A DNA stretch of 64,000 bases from Clostridiales bacterium (lineage in GTDB: Bacteria > Bacillota > Clostridia > Saccharofermentanales > Saccharofermentanaceae). The DNA is taken from the NCBI GenBank assembly GCA_017617525.1, contig JAFZWA010000050.1, forward strand, positions 62,001 to 126,000, in the 5' to 3' direction. A program made the position numbers and the translations under genes. A model generated the notes under the pieces. That model was not told where the DNA came from. It made no database searches and worked only from the letters and a program-made list of their open reading frames with translations. Positions 51,629-61,269 of this stretch are shown here, piece after piece (within the stretch, counting starts at the first letter, position 1; every line of letters begins with the position of its first letter).

Positions 51629-51714
51629 TTTTACCTTCGGTATAAACCTCTGTTCAACGCCATGAAAAAAGTGCATACTTTAAACTAATCCGAAAAAAGT
51701 GAGGCATGGATGTT

Positions 51715-52593
51715 ATGGCAAATTCTAAAGCTTCCTGGATCGATCAGATCCCCGAAGGCGACTTTATCACACCTGAACCGTCATATGAGGTAGGTAAGTA
51801 TTTCGACCGCTTTAAAAGCGATGAGGCGGCGGGTATGAAGTACTATTTCTTCGACCCTTCCGAGCACGGCTATCCGAAGGAAAAGAACTATCCGCTTCTT
51901 ATTTTCCTGCATGGCGCGACCAATGCCCTCGTTGGAGAGACCTGCATCAACTATACCGGCGCGGAGTACTATGCTTCCGATAAATATCAGGAAGATCTCG
52001 GCGGCGCTTATATCCTGATCCCGATCGCCAATGAGTATAAGCTCGAGGACGGCCGCTGCGCGGGCTTTTGGGACGAGACCTATGTCGATCCCGTCATGAA
52101 GCTCATTGACGCATTTATCGAAAAGCACACGGAGGGTGTCGGCGTGAAGTTCCTTCTCGGAAACTCCGCGGGCGCGAGATTTACTTTTACCCTGGCCACA
52201 AGTTTCCCGGATAAGTTCGACGTTCTGGTACCGGTCGGAACCGACGCGATCCCGGATGACGATGTGATGGATGAACTGGAGAAAAACGGCGTGACACTGT
52301 TCTTTGCCGACGGCCTTCGCGATGAGATCGTAAGTCACGAAAAGATCGAGGCCAGACGTCCCCGTATGGAAAGAATGAAGAACAGCTTCATCTATACACC
52401 GGAATGGGTAAGAAACGCGGACAAAGGCATCGCTTCGATCAACTTCGGTTTCGAGATGGGGCAGCACTGCCTGATGAACGGCGTACAGTCGAACCTGATG
52501 TTTCTGGATGGAACGCCGATGGATCCGAGACTTCCGAACGGTATGACCGGATGGATGGCCGAGGAACTGAAACGTCGTGAATCGAACAAATAA
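51715..52593 (+). CDS. Alpha/beta hydrolase, esterase-like, cytoplasmic
   Basis: Probable esterase of the PHB-depolymerase/feruloyl-esterase-like group. LLIFLHGAT near residue 60 is the oxyanion-hole strand; LGNSAGARF near 146 is the nucleophile elbow GxSxG; a D in FADGLRDEIV near 200 and H in MGQHCLMNG near 255 complete a plausible triad. No signal peptide, so the substrate is intracellular or imported. The start is uncertain between ATG 51706 and 51715; 51715 has the better spacing to GTGAGG. It stands alone after the tRNA terminator and before a DeoR regulator. Confidence 0.8.
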   Translation: MANSKASWIDQIPEGDFITPEPSYEVGKYFDRFKSDEAAGMKYYFFDPSEHGYPKEKNYPLLIFLHGATNALVGETCINYTGAEYYASDKYQEDLGGAYILIPIANEYKLEDGRCAGFWDETYVDPVMKLIDAFIEKHTEGVGVKFLLGNSAGARFTFTLATSFPDKFDVLVPVGTDAIPDDDVMDELEKNGVTLFFADGLRDEIVSHEKIEARRPRMERMKNSFIYTPEWVRNADKGIASINFGFEMGQHCLMNGVQSNLMFLDGTPMDPRLPNGMTGWMAEELKRRESNK

Positions 52594-53501: not shown

Positions 53502-54449
53502 TCAGTCTTCGATCGCATCGGAAGACGCGATCTTCTGCTTTAACTGCTTCGGCGTGATATGTCTGTGCTTCTTAAACTGCGTGATGAAATAACTGGAAGT
53601 ACTGAATCCCGTATCTAAAGCGATCTGGCTTATGCTCTTTGATGTCGTGATCAGGAGCTTTTCGGCTTCTGTCAGACGGACATAAAGGAGATAGTCGGAA
53701 AACGTCTGTCCCAGCGCGTGGCGGAAGAAACGGGAAAAGTAACTGTAGCTCATGTTGCACATCTTTGCCATCTTCTCGGCCAGTACCGGCTGCATATAGT
53801 TCTCATGGATATAGTCTAAGACGGCATTTAAGCGGACGATGTCTTCCGGACGGATGTTAGCGTTTCCGTACATGGAGATGCCGTTTTCTTCCATTCTTCT
53901 CAAGTACCACAGGAAAATGCGGCAGATGTCGGCGCGGATCGCGAGCTCGAAGCCCGGCGCGCGCTCGGTATATTCTTTATGGTAGTCGCGGATATACTCC
54001 GGAATGTTCGTGCCCTCAAGGTCTTCCTTCTTCGCGAGAAGTGAATATGAACTGTTCTTTCCGATGCTGTGCGCCGTGGACATGATAAACGGCAGGATGT
54101 ACTTCGCGCCGGTGGAATAGACCGGGGAAGAGAAGAAGAGCGTCGGGTCGAACTGCAGGCAGTAGTACTCGCAAGGCTCGAAATGACGGAACGCGTGGAT
54201 CTCGTTGACGTTGATCAGGAGCATGTCGCCCTCGTTTACCTCGACATCACGATCCGCCATGGACGCAGAAAACCTGCCGCGGATTCCGTAAATGATCTCG
54301 ACAAAATCGTGATAATGAGGAACGATCTCGCGGCAGGGGTTGCCGTCTTCTAAAAAGTGCAGGCAAGATGCCGTCGCGCCACCGAGATTTTCTCTGTGAA
54401 GGTCCTCGTAAAGCGCTTTTCCGTTATTTTCGACATTCTGTGGCAGCAT
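53502..54449 (-). CDS. AraC-family regulator with N-terminal cupin domain
   Basis: Sugar-type AraC activator. The cupin sensor is near residues 40-110 (IVPHYHDFVEIIYGIRG, GDMLLINVNEIHAF); the double helix-turn-helix covers about 210-310, with VLAEKMAKMCNMSYSYFSRFFRHALG and ISQIALDTGFSTSSYFITQFKKHRHITPKQ. 315 residues. Its stop codon abuts the stop of the DeoR gene (TGATCA). It lies 103 bases after the XRE gene in the same direction and may be co-transcribed with it. Target genes cannot be told. Confidence 0.92.
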   Translation of the reverse strand: MLPQNVENNGKALYEDLHRENLGGATASCLHFLEDGNPCREIVPHYHDFVEIIYGIRGRFSASMADRDVEVNEGDMLLINVNEIHAFRHFEPCEYYCLQFDPTLFFSSPVYSTGAKYILPFIMSTAHSIGKNSSYSLLAKKEDLEGTNIPEYIRDYHKEYTERAPGFELAIRADICRIFLWYLRRMEENGISMYGNANIRPEDIVRLNAVLDYIHENYMQPVLAEKMAKMCNMSYSYFSRFFRHALGQTFSDYLLYVRLTEAEKLLITTSKSISQIALDTGFSTSSYFITQFKKHRHITPKQLKQKIASSDAIED

Positions 54450-54552: not shown

Positions 54553-54813
54553 TTACGAAGCGATCCGACTGTCCGCCGACACCAGCAGATACTCGGATTC
54601 CAGAACGACCAGCTCGCAGAACTGGACGGGCGAAACGCCAAGGGCGCGAAGTATCGCGTGGAGCTTTCGTATGGAGGGGTTGGCTTCACCGCGCTCGAGT
54701 TTGCAGTAGTAGGACAGGTTTATGCCTGATCTCTGGGCGACGCTGAATTGGGAAAGTTCTTTTTCTCTTCGGATCGTGCGGATCGCGTTTCCGATGACCT
54801 TGGATTCGTCCAT
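54553..54813 (-). CDS. Small XRE-family DNA-binding protein
   Basis: A minimal helix-turn-helix repressor of 86 residues: VIGNAIRTIRREKELSQFSVAQRSGINLSYYCKLERGEANPSIRKLHAILRALGV, with the usual five helices, and a short Ser/Val-rich tail. AGGAGGTGT is seen on the minus strand just before the ATG. A perfect palindrome overlaps its own promoter, suggesting autorepression. Confidence 0.9.
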   Translation of the reverse strand: MDESKVIGNAIRTIRREKELSQFSVAQRSGINLSYYCKLERGEANPSIRKLHAILRALGVSPVQFCELVVLESEYLLVSADSRIAS

Positions 54814-55039: not shown

Positions 55040-57391
55040 ATGGCGCAATTGAATGATATACGTCTTCCGTCCTGGATCTCTCCGGGCATGGTCTTTCAGC
55101 AGGGTGTCCCGATCATTTTGAGAGGAAAAGTAGGTTCCCCTTCAGTCCCTGTCACACTGGAGGTCATGAAGGACCCGACGGACGGACGTAAGGTTTCCAA
55201 GCTCGATACGGATTACGGTGTCATCTTAAGTCTGGAGACGGTTTCTGATGAAGACGGTTCTTTCCAGTTCACGATGCCTGCGTACCGATCCTCTACCGAC
55301 GCCTATACACTGGTTTTCCATAGTCTTACCGAGCAGGTGACCATCGAAGACTGCCGATGCGGCGATGTCTGGGTCATGTTCGGCGGAAAGCCTTTCGCGG
55401 CTTCTATCGCGGAGACTGCCGCGCCGCGTACGCCTCTTAAGAAAGATGTCATGCCGCTTCTGCGTTTCTATTCGCCGAAGAAAGGTACTCTTGATGATAT
55501 CGAAAAGCTCTCTTACGATCCGATCTTCACGATCGATGACACCAAGTGGATCAGGATCCGTGATACCAAAGAACTGGCCAGCGTTTCGTCCGTTGCTTTT
55601 TCCTACGCGTATCACCTGGCCGAGCAATTGCACTATCCGGTCGGTATCTTAGACCTTGCAGAAGAGTATGCCCCGATCTACCGCTGGATCTCCCACGAGA
55701 GCATCGACGGTAATGACGCGATCCGTGAGTATCTTGAAGAGAGAAACCTCTACTTCGACGAAGAGGGGTGGCGCGCGAACATTGCCCGCCTTACCGATAA
55801 GAAGGACGCGATCGAGACCGGCGATATCTTAAAGGACGACGAAACATCCGAAGAGTCCTTCGTTTTCGAAGATGAAGAGAAGGTCGATGTACCGATCGAT
55901 CCGGAGGGCGCGCTTGCCTTTGAAGACCAGAAGGGCGGCCAGAAGACGGAAGAATCCGAGGAGTCTGATTCCGCGGAAAAAGAACCTGAGAAGGCCGATA
56001 CCGCATCGGAAGAAAACGACGATGAACCGCCGCTTTCTTTCCCGACCGAGGAGCTTAAGCATTTCGAGAAGAAAAACAATCTGGATCTTCTGAATTCCAT
56101 CATCCCGTCGGCAGAGACGGTCATGACCGATACTCTCGTATCCGAGGCGGCACACCGTCCGCTCGTCGGACCTTCCGACATGATGAGCGTATTCTTTAAC
56201 CACCGCCTGGCGCCGCTTTGCGACACCAGTATCCGTGGTATCGTATTCGCGCCGGACGCATCCGACGCGCAGATCGGAAACCTCTATTCCACGATGGTCC
56301 GCCAGCTCCTTATCGATCTGGCCCGTGTATTCGGTCCCCGTGAGATCGAAGAAAAGAATCAGGTGCCGTCATTTATCATTACGCAGCTGCATCCGGACGC
56401 GATGGATCCGGAGGAGCCGTTCCGTCATGTCGAGTTCAACGAAAGACTCTGCGCGATCCGAAGAAGATTCCCGATGCCGATCGGTATCCTGGGCCAGCAT
56501 GACCTTCTTATCCCGGATAAGGCCGTTTCCTTTACGATCGGTCGAAGACTTTCCTGTATCGCCCTGGGACTTCACTTTACGCCGAAGATGCCGGCTTCGT
56601 CTCCGGAATGCGTCGGTGTCGAGGTGATCGGAAATAAGGTCATGCTTTCCTTCGACAACACGGTCGACGGTCTGCGTCTTTCCGAAAATGAATCCGTCCT
56701 TAGAGGCTTCTCCGTCTGTGACGAAAGCCGCGTGTATGTTCCCGCGCAGGCAAGGATCCTTCATGGCGTGCGCGTCATGGTATGGAACGACGATGTCCTC
56801 GATCCGGTAGGCGTTACCTACGGTTACGCGCCGATCCCGCATCAGGCGACATTCAGAAACCGTATCGATCTTCCGGTACTTCCTTTCCGTTTCGATAAGA
56901 TCCCGTCCGAGTACTGCCCGGACCTGACCTTTACGGCATGCGAAGACATTACCTTTACAGGTAAGAAGACCTGGGACAGTGATTTTGAAAAACTCGAGAC
57001 CTATCAGATCACGAAGGGTAAAGCAACGATCTTCCGTGAGGTCATGAACAAGACGCAGGGCGCGGCTTCGCTTCGTATCGAGTACGAACCGGAAAACAGC
57101 CTTCTGTCGTTTGGACCGGTGCTTTCCTATGCGTCCGTCATGGCGCCTCTTAAGTTCTCGAAGGCAAGAAGGATCTGCCTGGATATCTTTAATCCGGATC
57201 AGTGCGAAAAGACGATGCAGATCACCGGCTTCCGCGGAGAGGCGACGATCCAGATCGGACTTCGCTGGCAGACGATCACACTGAACTGGGCATCTTTTGA
57301 TGACATGGAGATCAATAATCTCATATTCACCATTTTTGACAGACAGCGTTCCGGAGCGATCTATATCGATAACATCCGGTTCCTGCCGTAA
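55040..57391 (+). CDS. Intracellular sialate O-acetylesterase homologue with both catalytic residues replaced
   Basis: Overall plan of the SIAE/SGNH family: the N-terminal beta domain opens LPSWISPGMVFQQGVPIILRG, followed by CGDVW at residues 107-111. In active enzymes this leads into SGQSNM with the nucleophile Ser; here it is FGGKPF, with Lys117 at the Ser position. The usual D-x-HP near the end of the domain reads DLLIPDK (488-494), with Ile in place of His. A Glu/Asp-rich insert of about 75 residues lies near 262-340, and the C-terminal 180 residues look like a beta-sandwich glycan-binding module. No signal peptide. It is followed 28 bases on by an AraC regulator. Probably a binding or regulatory protein rather than an esterase. 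Confidence 0.72.
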   Translation: MAQLNDIRLPSWISPGMVFQQGVPIILRGKVGSPSVPVTLEVMKDPTDGRKVSKLDTDYGVILSLETVSDEDGSFQFTMPAYRSSTDAYTLVFHSLTEQVTIEDCRCGDVWVMFGGKPFAASIAETAAPRTPLKKDVMPLLRFYSPKKGTLDDIEKLSYDPIFTIDDTKWIRIRDTKELASVSSVAFSYAYHLAEQLHYPVGILDLAEEYAPIYRWISHESIDGNDAIREYLEERNLYFDEEGWRANIARLTDKKDAIETGDILKDDETSEESFVFEDEEKVDVPIDPEGALAFEDQKGGQKTEESEESDSAEKEPEKADTASEENDDEPPLSFPTEELKHFEKKNNLDLLNSIIPSAETVMTDTLVSEAAHRPLVGPSDMMSVFFNHRLAPLCDTSIRGIVFAPDASDAQIGNLYSTMVRQLLIDLARVFGPREIEEKNQVPSFIITQLHPDAMDPEEPFRHVEFNERLCAIRRRFPMPIGILGQHDLLIPDKAVSFTIGRRLSCIALGLHFTPKMPASSPECVGVEVIGNKVMLSFDNTVDGLRLSENESVLRGFSVCDESRVYVPAQARILHGVRVMVWNDDVLDPVGVTYGYAPIPHQATFRNRIDLPVLPFRFDKIPSEYCPDLTFTACEDITFTGKKTWDSDFEKLETYQITKGKATIFREVMNKTQGAASLRIEYEPENSLLSFGPVLSYASVMAPLKFSKARRICLDIFNPDQCEKTMQITGFRGEATIQIGLRWQTITLNWASFDDMEINNLIFTIFDRQRSGAIYIDNIRFLP

Positions 57392-57419
57392 ACGAAAGAC
57401 AAGAAGGGGGGCTTAAAGC

Positions 57420-58415
57420 ATGGTCGAAGATCTGTTACCGGCATTTGAAAAAAGTTTACTGGAATCCTCCGGCTCGATACCGGTGGTCTTTGAAGGCGCG
57501 GAACATTGTTACGAGACATCCACACCTTTCCCGACGGCCAGCCGTCACACCTCTCATGAGCTTCTTTACTTAAGAAGAGGCAAATGCGAATTCGTCATCA
57601 ACGGAAAGACCGTTTCGGTGACAAAAGGAACGACATTGATCATCCGTCCGCAGGTCATGCACTCCGTGCGTGTCGTGGAAGGTCCTGCCGATATGGTCGT
57701 TCTGTACTTCGGATTTTCGTCCGATATCGCAAAAGCACAGCAGGCGCTGCTTTCGAAGCCCTCGGATACACAGCCGATGGCCAACGGCCGTTTAAGAGGT
57801 GGTCCGACCGTCCCTTTCCTTCAGGAAAACGTAGCGTCGCTTTCGCTTGAAAACTTCCTGGATTTTGCCCAGGGTGACAGCGCCGTAGGTGACGGCAGCA
57901 ACTACCTGATCATCTCCGGTAAATCCCGTCAGGCGATCGGCGTTCTGGCCGAGCGCATTATGCGCGAGAGCCGTTCGGATATGTACGCCAAGGACATGAT
58001 GATGCAGCTTCTGACCATGGAGCTTCTGATCACGCTTTCCCGTGCGCTTCGAGAAGAGTGGGAGGAGAGCCTTCGAGTCAAAAACGGCAAGGCCAGAGAG
58101 CTCGTTCTCATCGCCAGAGACTATCTCGACGAAAACTATGACCGCGGCGTGACGGTTGCGGAGACCGCGGCATATGTCTTCTTGAGCCAGGGTTACTTTA
58201 CAAGAGCTTTTCGCGATGAATTCGGCATCAGCCCGATGAACTATCTCATGCAGATCCGAATCGAAGCGGCGTGCCGCCTCCTGACGCAAAAAGAGATCAA
58301 GGTCAGCGGTATCGCGACGCAGGTGGGCTTTTCCAGCCCGCAGCGTTTCAACGTGGCATTCAGAAAACAGAAGGGCATGACGCCCATGGAATACAGACAT
58401 AAGTACACAAAATAA
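57420..58415 (+). CDS. AraC-family regulator with N-terminal cupin domain
   Basis: Cupin sensor near residues 35-105 (RHTSHELLYLRRGKCEFVINGK, TTLIIRPQVMHSVRV); the C-terminal DNA-binding domain has TVAETAAYVFLSQGYFTRAFRDEFGISPMNYLMQIR and ISGIATQVGF-like VSGIATQVGFSSPQRFNVAFRKQKGMTPMEYR. 331 residues. AAGGGGGG precedes the start. It is co-transcribed with the degenerate SIAE gene, which suggests that the two act together. folE follows 16 bases after the stop. Confidence 0.92.
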   Translation: MVEDLLPAFEKSLLESSGSIPVVFEGAEHCYETSTPFPTASRHTSHELLYLRRGKCEFVINGKTVSVTKGTTLIIRPQVMHSVRVVEGPADMVVLYFGFSSDIAKAQQALLSKPSDTQPMANGRLRGGPTVPFLQENVASLSLENFLDFAQGDSAVGDGSNYLIISGKSRQAIGVLAERIMRESRSDMYAKDMMMQLLTMELLITLSRALREEWEESLRVKNGKARELVLIARDYLDENYDRGVTVAETAAYVFLSQGYFTRAFRDEFGISPMNYLMQIRIEAACRLLTQKEIKVSGIATQVGFSSPQRFNVAFRKQKGMTPMEYRHKYTK

Positions 58416-58431: not shown

Positions 58432-59052
58432 ATGAGCAATTACGATGACGATTTCCGCGTACCTGAGGAAAGCCGAAAGGGCATGGACCTTGAGCGGATC
58501 GAAAGAGCAGTTCGAGAGATCTTGATCGCGGTCGGTGAGGATCCGGACAGAGAGGGACTTGTCGAGACACCGAACCGTGTGGCGAGAATGTACGGCGAAG
58601 TCTTTTCCGGACTGCACAGAGATATCGAAAAGGACATCAAGACCTTCACATCCGATAACGATGAGATGATCCTGATCGGCGATATCCCGTTCTACTCCAT
58701 GTGTGAGCACCACCTTCTGCCTTTCCATGGAAAAGCACACGTCGTATATGTTCCGAGAGACGGTAAGATCCTGGGCCTTTCGAAGGTAGCGCGTATCGTA
58801 GATACACTTTCCAGAAAGCCCCAGCTTCAGGAGCGCCTTACATCCGAGATCGCCGACACGATCCAGAAAGCGGTCGACGCGATGTCCGTCTGCGTAGTCC
58901 TTGAAGCCGAGCACCTCTGCATGACGATGCGAGGCGTAAGAAAGCCGGGCAGCAAGACCGTCACATCCGCGATGCGCGGCGGTTGCCGTTCCGACGCGAG
59001 AACGCGTTCTGAGGCGCTCGCCCTCATCAACCGTCCGAGAAATATCATTTGA
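58432..59052 (+). CDS. folE: GTP cyclohydrolase I
   Basis: First enzyme of tetrahydrofolate synthesis, making dihydroneopterin triphosphate from [23 protein letters not shown] near residue 86 has the zinc Cys and His; the second zinc Cys is in [13 protein letters not shown] near 155. 206 residues. AAGGAGAG precedes the ATG. First of folE-folP-folB-folK. Confidence 0.97.
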
Positions 59053-60800: not shown

Positions 60801-60843
60801 TAAATTATTCAGTTCTCTTTAAGTATAAAGAGTGGAGGTAGAA

Positions 60844-61269
60844 ATGAGCGAACAGGAACCGAAAAAGGTGAATCACGCGCCGGCGGCAACAGGCACAAAC
60901 GGCCAGCAGCCCCCGAGAAACAACAATAACCGTAACAGAAGAAGAAAGTCCGGAAATTACGGCGGAAACCGTGATCGCAATAACTATAACCGCGCAAACA
61001 GAAACGGTGAGGAAAACCAGAACCAGAACCGTGAAAGAAAGGCGGATAACCGCGAGGCGAAAAGATCCGATAATCGTGAAAGAAATAACGGCGGATTTGA
61101 AAAGAGAGAGCACAGAGGCTCCGGAAGAAACGACCATCGCGAGAAGAAGAACTGGAACCGCCGCCGTCCCGCGGAGGAGACAGTTGAGGATATCAGAAAA
61201 GATAACGAGCGTATCGAGAAGGATATCTGGCTCGAGATCGCCAGCATTCATTCCGTGAAACTCGACTGA
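60844..61269 (+). CDS. Disordered Arg/Asn-rich basic protein with conserved-looking C-terminal helix
   Basis: Residues about 18-105 are almost only Asn, Arg, Gly, Lys, Glu and Asp, a composition typical of disordered RNA-binding tails. The last 30 residues (VEDIRKDNERIEKDIWLEIASIHSVKLD) are predicted helical and look like the conserved part. 141 residues, start at ATG 60844 after GGAGGT. It has its own promoter between fol and tmk. Not recognised; RNA binding is inference from composition. Confidence 0.75.
   Translation: MSEQEPKKVNHAPAATGTNGQQPPRNNNNRNRRRKSGNYGGNRDRNNYNRANRNGEENQNQNRERKADNREAKRSDNRERNNGGFEKREHRGSGRNDHREKKNWNRRRPAEETVEDIRKDNERIEKDIWLEIASIHSVKLD

Follow-up and report, generated by a model that had tools for sequence, protein, structure and literature searches.

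A degenerate CE20/SIAE-like protein without recognised catalytic residues, encoded next to a cupin/AraC-type gene in a Clostridiales bacterium

What remains of a carbohydrate esterase when its active-site motifs have changed beyond recognition, and is the product still an enzyme, a partner of the regulator encoded next to it, or something else? The question is raised by a gene on a 64,000-nucleotide stretch of DNA from a Clostridiales bacterium (the window). A preliminary description had read its 783-residue product as an intracellular pseudoenzyme of the SIAE family, co-transcribed with a cupin-AraC regulator, and had considered glycan binding or a partnership with that regulator as its role. 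We compared the protein with solved structures, with its relatives in the same family (f1) and with those in three sister families (f2-f4).

Fold and domain layout

The protein and its domains are encoded as follows.

55040..57391 (+): degenerate CE20/SIAE-like protein, 783 aa (open reading frame; homology by sequence and fold)
55052..55339 (+): N-terminal beta domain, residues 5-100, with the VFQQ motif kept (sequence and model)
55169..55219 (+): KDPTDGRKVSKLDTDYG, residues 44-60, a loop specific to the lineage that interrupts the N-terminal beta domain (alignments)
55823..56140 (+): acidic disordered linker, residues 262-367, in place of the CE20 ancillary beta-sandwich (model and composition)
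56912..57388 (+): C-terminal jelly-roll domain, about residues 625-783, with a CBM11/CBM4-like fold (model and searches)

The open reading frame carries LPSWISPGMVFQQ and GDVW, from which the SIAE plan had been proposed. The full protein has no match above cut-off in Pfam or NCBIfam, and P0001 and L031 lack a match to Pfam SASA (PF03629) even at E 1, while this domain does match relatives from f2-f4. Searched as a single sequence against solved structures, the protein finds Fl8CE20_II (9h4u, E 4.7e-15) and also PpCE20_II (9ega) and XacXaeA (7kmm). A profile built from 21 family members reaches E 1.3e-31 against solved structures, and one built from 52 members of the order matches 9ega in the PDB with E 2.3e-71; judged by these values, the match to CE20/SIAE is beyond chance. 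The AlphaFold2 model of the 783-residue protein (pLDDT 84.7, pTM 0.81) has an SGNH core flanked by beta domains, and all of its top Foldseek matches are CE20 or SIAE proteins: XacXaeA is best (7kmm, TM by target 0.84), followed by 9ega, 9h4u and mammalian SIAE. As sequence, profile and fold agree, the CE20/SIAE plan is real despite the Pfam blank, and the protein is a true remote relative of these carbohydrate esterases. A single-sequence search of its own genome found no second SIAE paralogue that might complement it; a profile search of that genome counted two further matches.

The protein has no hydrophobic stretch resembling a signal peptide, as had been stated before, and a simple hydrophobicity check, in which some start codons are uncertain, found no clear export signal in any family of the series. 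The missing signal supports a cytoplasmic location.

Three regions set the protein apart from solved CE20 enzymes. The loop at residues 44-60 is an insertion that is absent from them. Residues 41-66 have a mean conservation of 0.90, compared to 0.74 for the domain, which is the highest value among the family stretches compared, and the loop can be recognised in much of the order as R-x-P-x-D-G-R...S-x-L-D-x-x-Y-G. Bacterial CE20 enzymes carry an ancillary beta-sandwich within the SGNH domain; at this place the window protein has an acidic stretch predicted to be disordered. Residues 262-367 contain 35 D/E versus 9 K/R, and in the AlphaFold2 model the pLDDT stays under 50 for almost the whole of residues 267-367, so that the acidic insert of the preliminary description is confirmed, with the disorder mainly there. 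The C-terminal beta-sandwich also proved correct. When modelled alone, this domain reaches a pLDDT of 93 and resembles the jelly-rolls of CBM11 and CBM4; its best match to a carbohydrate module is 1v0a (E 2.3e-5, TM about 0.5), and the likeness to CBMs is one of fold only, with a TM of about 0.5 and 10-19% identity. No sequence family matches it above cut-off (CBM_17_28 E 0.066; 1gui E 0.26). A search of 392 genomes of the class found all good matches to this domain within the order and a single marginal match of 26 residues outside, so that no convincing occurrence elsewhere in the class is indicated by sequence.

State of the catalytic blocks

CE20 enzymes use the Ser of GQSNM as nucleophile; the Gln of this motif and a Gly make up the oxyanion hole, and the His of DxH, with its water-linked Asp, acts as the base (PMC12313940). 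Alignments place the corresponding remnants of the window protein as follows.

55379..55396 (+): block I remnant FGGKPF (residues 114-119) where CE20 has GQSNM, with Lys117 at the Ser
56246..56266 (+): block III remnant FAPDASD (residues 403-409) where relatives have WYQGESD
56498..56521 (+): block V remnant HDLLIPDK (residues 487-494), the catalytic DxHP being lost

The position of Lys117 in place of the nucleophile is as had been described. A change of the catalytic HP to IP at residues 491-492 had also been reported, and this holds only in part. The His is indeed absent, but I491 is just one of three registers: single-sequence alignment and the family profile versus 9ega place I491 at the site, the family profile versus 9h4u places V496 there, and our own reading of the alignments, including the order profile, gives D493. 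Comparison with relatives from the order suggests that the His-bearing loop has been shortened or deleted. The motif losses named earlier are real, but the damage is wider. The Gln of GQSNM is replaced in the f1 family by S (48), G (21) or N (11), QGES has become FAPDASD, and residues 207-210, which align with the oxyanion Gly (Gly199 of Fl8CE20_II), include no Gly that is conserved in the family.

The degradation of GQSNM, QGE and DxH extends throughout the family. Position 117 is D in 39, E in 16, R in 15 and K in 7 of 80 f1 orthologues, with N, V and G once each; Ser is not found at all. Lys117 as a functional replacement of the Ser is thus rejected, as the site is not conserved, and Ile491, the other replacement that had been singled out, is not conserved either, so that the check proposed in the preliminary description, conservation of these two residues, fails. 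By these alignments, the protein is shown to lack any recognised catalytic apparatus in the window's family.

The old cleft has, in turn, invariant residues that are the family's own (H487, D488, D205 and P405). They bear on the possibility that the active site has been rebuilt and that the protein is still an enzyme, which would use H487, D488, D205 and the acidic position 406 for another chemistry, perhaps a metal-dependent one. H487 and D488 are invariant in 81 of 81 family members, D205 in 80 of 80, and position 406 is D, N or E in 79 of 81; in the model, these residues lie at or just after the ends of the SGNH-core strands 201-207, 400-404 and 481-484. Residue 117 is, moreover, charged (D/E/R/K) in 77 of 80 orthologues. 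However, block I offers no conserved nucleophile, since residue 117 may be acidic, basic or neutral within a single family, and the putative site is not common to the sister families, which mostly have Y at position 487. We consider a rebuilt enzyme unlikely, with the conservation of H487-D488 speaking for it.

The gene is not a decaying pseudogene: stop codons are absent among the matches listed, and pairwise Ka/Ks values for the whole gene within the window's genus are 0.051-0.114. It is under strong purifying selection and encodes a maintained protein, of which the acidic linker is the fastest-evolving part (Ka/Ks 0.08-0.31). With catalytic residues lost and the gene kept by purifying selection across many species, the designation as a pseudoenzyme is strongly supported.

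Genomic context

The following genes adjoin the pseudoenzyme gene.

54553..54813 (-): small XRE/Cro-type HTH regulator, 86 aa, the divergent upstream neighbour
57420..58415 (+): cupin/AraC-family regulator, 331 aa, adjoining downstream wherever a family member has enough flank
58432..59052 (+): folE (GTP cyclohydrolase I), the first gene of a folE-folP-folB-folK run after the AraC gene

The cupin-AraC gene lies downstream as described, at a distance of 28 bp. All 79 f1 loci whose flank is long enough show the same arrangement (a script flagged 76, and the other 3 overlap only through the chosen start codon); in 76 relatives the gap is for the most part 0-40 bp. The stretch between the two genes contains no terminator-like site and, judged from their spacing, co-transcription is likely. 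The order pseudoenzyme-araC-folE-folP-folB-folK-tmk-holB is nearly fixed in all five genera of the family. An XRE-type regulator occupies the upstream position in genera g1-g4 and was not found there in g5; its gene product is a possible alternative to the AraC protein for control of the operon.

Two other genes of the window may be mentioned. An Arg/Asn/Gly-rich low-complexity protein is encoded between folK and tmk (60832-61269, + strand), and similar ORFs occur at this place in many loci of the family. Further upstream, a putative alpha/beta-hydrolase or esterase-like protein (51706-52593, + strand; Pfam Esterase below cut-off) adjoins a DeoR regulator and an AraC regulator at 53502-54449.

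The sister families present a different picture. The layout in f2 is DUF2344-pseudoenzyme-valS; in f3 the gene lies between rsmA, downstream, and either DUF2344 or a pgi-like gene, upstream; in those f4 loci that reach far enough it adjoins DUF2344, RNase G or valS. Immediately before the pseudoenzyme gene, DUF2344 is found in f2, in some f3 loci and in a single f4 locus, and RNase G in a second f4 locus; valS or rsmA is directly downstream, sometimes overlapping. Such ancestral neighbours could point to a role in translation or RNA metabolism. This role is improbable: the neighbourhood is its entire support, f1 has left that position and yet kept the gene, and domain searches found no RNA-binding domain.

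An orthologue of the AraC gene occurs in f4 in front of folE without the pseudoenzyme, behind Flp-pilus CpaB-like genes (best f4 matches 57-60% identity), while f2 has only distant AraC matches and yet retains the pseudoenzyme. One rival reading makes the protein a dedicated co-regulator of the cupin-AraC protein, either a ligand-sensing partner or an anti-activator, and the invariant and usually tight pairing in f1 is what such a role would predict. The neighbour is, however, conserved in this one of four families and unlinked in f2-f4, and the f1 synteny block holds the fol genes, tmk and holB as well. The sister-family neighbourhoods lead us to reject an obligate partnership, and any dedicated co-regulation is very improbable. 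Belonging to a run of housekeeping genes, the AraC gene is an adjacent gene rather than a demonstrated partner, and the simplest reading is that the pseudoenzyme gene moved in front of an existing araC-folE pair in the f1 ancestor.

Occurrence, probable role and known counterparts

Of the 115 family genomes, 112 have a relative, as do 173 of the 188 genomes of the order; a profile search at E 1e-15, which counts weaker matches too, finds one in 180 of the 188. The family records are mostly MAGs from rumen or gut (Saccharofermentans sp., Mageeibacillus sp., Clostridiales/Ruminococcaceae), and the order probably corresponds to the one that includes Saccharofermentans. True absence from the three remaining family genomes was not accepted: two of them also lack folE, the contig of the third apparently ends inside folE, and missing assembly is equally likely. 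In one genome (G016; loci L077 and L175) only 89 aa from the C-terminal part of the pseudoenzyme are left ahead of an intact araC-folE pair, with transporter-permease-like genes upstream on the opposite strand; both a deletion and an assembly join are possible.

A tree was computed from 47 proteins after removal of the trait columns, by a quick method that leaves some long branches. In this tree f1, f2 and f3 each form one side of a branch and the four families need only three changes; it follows taxonomy and is consistent with vertical descent. By contrast, Ser versus non-Ser requires at least 6 changes and His versus non-His at least 7, which we read as losses because the outgroup enzymes are intact. 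Intermediate states have been preserved. Ser and His are both kept in a few f4 and f3 relatives (L051, L052, L054, L066, L076), Ser occurs without His in L055, L056, L059, L067 and L068, Asp occurs with His in L070, L071, L073 and L074 (f3) and L072 (f2), and both Ser and His are gone in f1 and others. The nucleophile motif is two residues shorter in L060 and L064 (f4), which also lack the His loop; this is apparently an independent dismantling of the same site. The change of Ser to Asp in the nucleophile motif (GQDNM) was observed in f2 and f3 (L058, L061, L063, L065, L069 and L070-L074), and GQDNM is also present in a separate 525-aa SIAE-like protein of L078.

Because Ser and His persist in a few f4 and f3 relatives, esterase activity was probably still present in the ancestor and may be kept by some members today. 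An ordinary, active SIAE/CE20 esterase whose triad lies elsewhere, the case that the preliminary description had named as refuting its own reading, is very improbable for the window protein, despite the clear CE20 fold and homology, since all three catalytic blocks are degraded family-wide, none of the three registers provides a His, and conservation largely refutes an intact triad at another place.

We consider it probable that the protein is a non-catalytic and vertically inherited binding or scaffold protein derived from CE20, and cytoplasmic as judged from its sequence. A CE20-type SGNH esterase would have given rise to a non-catalytic cytoplasmic descendant that was kept by vertical inheritance. 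The protein repeatedly outlives its active site, and its retained job therefore appears to need no ester hydrolysis. Most likely, a ligand or protein partner would be bound by surfaces that are conserved instead of the active site. Candidates are the RxPxDGR...LDxxYG loop specific to the order, the altered strand ends in the former cleft (D205, P405, H487-D488) and the C-terminal domain with its CBM-like fold; the acidic tether stands in for the CE20 ancillary domain. By analogy with the CE20 core and the CBM-like domain, glycan binding is possible, and a glycan or sugar derivative would be the natural first guess for the putative ligand. More tentatively, and at somewhat less than an even chance, a polysaccharide deacetylase may have become a nearly universal core protein of the order, cytoplasmic and encoded in housekeeping runs, which lost its active site in parallel lineages and serves an essential or nearly essential binding function through the loop and the CBM-like domain.

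While CE20 and SIAE proteins have been studied as deacetylases, this binding or scaffold protein would be an internal, apparently non-catalytic core protein conserved throughout an order, and to annotate its relatives as "sialate O-acetylesterase" would, for most of them, probably be an error. The graded intermediates (Ser and His intact, Asp for Ser with His kept, neither left, whole motif shortened) can be compared directly, and the series makes it possible to ask why an esterase scaffold is retained once its chemistry has gone. A literature search gave no description of an SGNH pseudoenzyme family of this kind in the titles and abstracts of its two matching papers.

The closest known systems are the CE20 enzymes XacXaeA (7KMM), Fl8CE20_II (9H4U) and PpCE20_II (9EGA), which share the N-terminal beta domain, the discontinuous SGNH core and a C-terminal beta domain. 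Unlike these, the window protein lacks the Ser, the oxyanion Gln, DxH and the QGE motif, has the acidic disordered linker instead of the ancillary domain, and carries in addition the N-terminal loop and the C-terminal jelly-roll; it is encoded by a core gene and not by a member of a polysaccharide locus. For the jelly-roll, CBM11 and CBM4 modules are the top carbohydrate-module matches, at the level of fold. Mammalian SIAE (8F9O-8F9R) has the fold in common (TM by target 0.70-0.73) and, like the window protein, has no CE20 ancillary domain. It works by a Ser-His dyad (PMC12313940), and thus keeps the two residues that the window protein has lost. XuaJ, a CE20 enzyme in an intracellular deacylation system of Ruminiclostridium cellulolyticum, is likewise a clostridial protein of the CE20 family and has been proposed to be intracellular (PMC11127375), so that cytoplasmic CE20 proteins have a precedent. 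It differs from the window protein in having a predicted S104-D508-H510 triad and in belonging to a xylan utilisation system.
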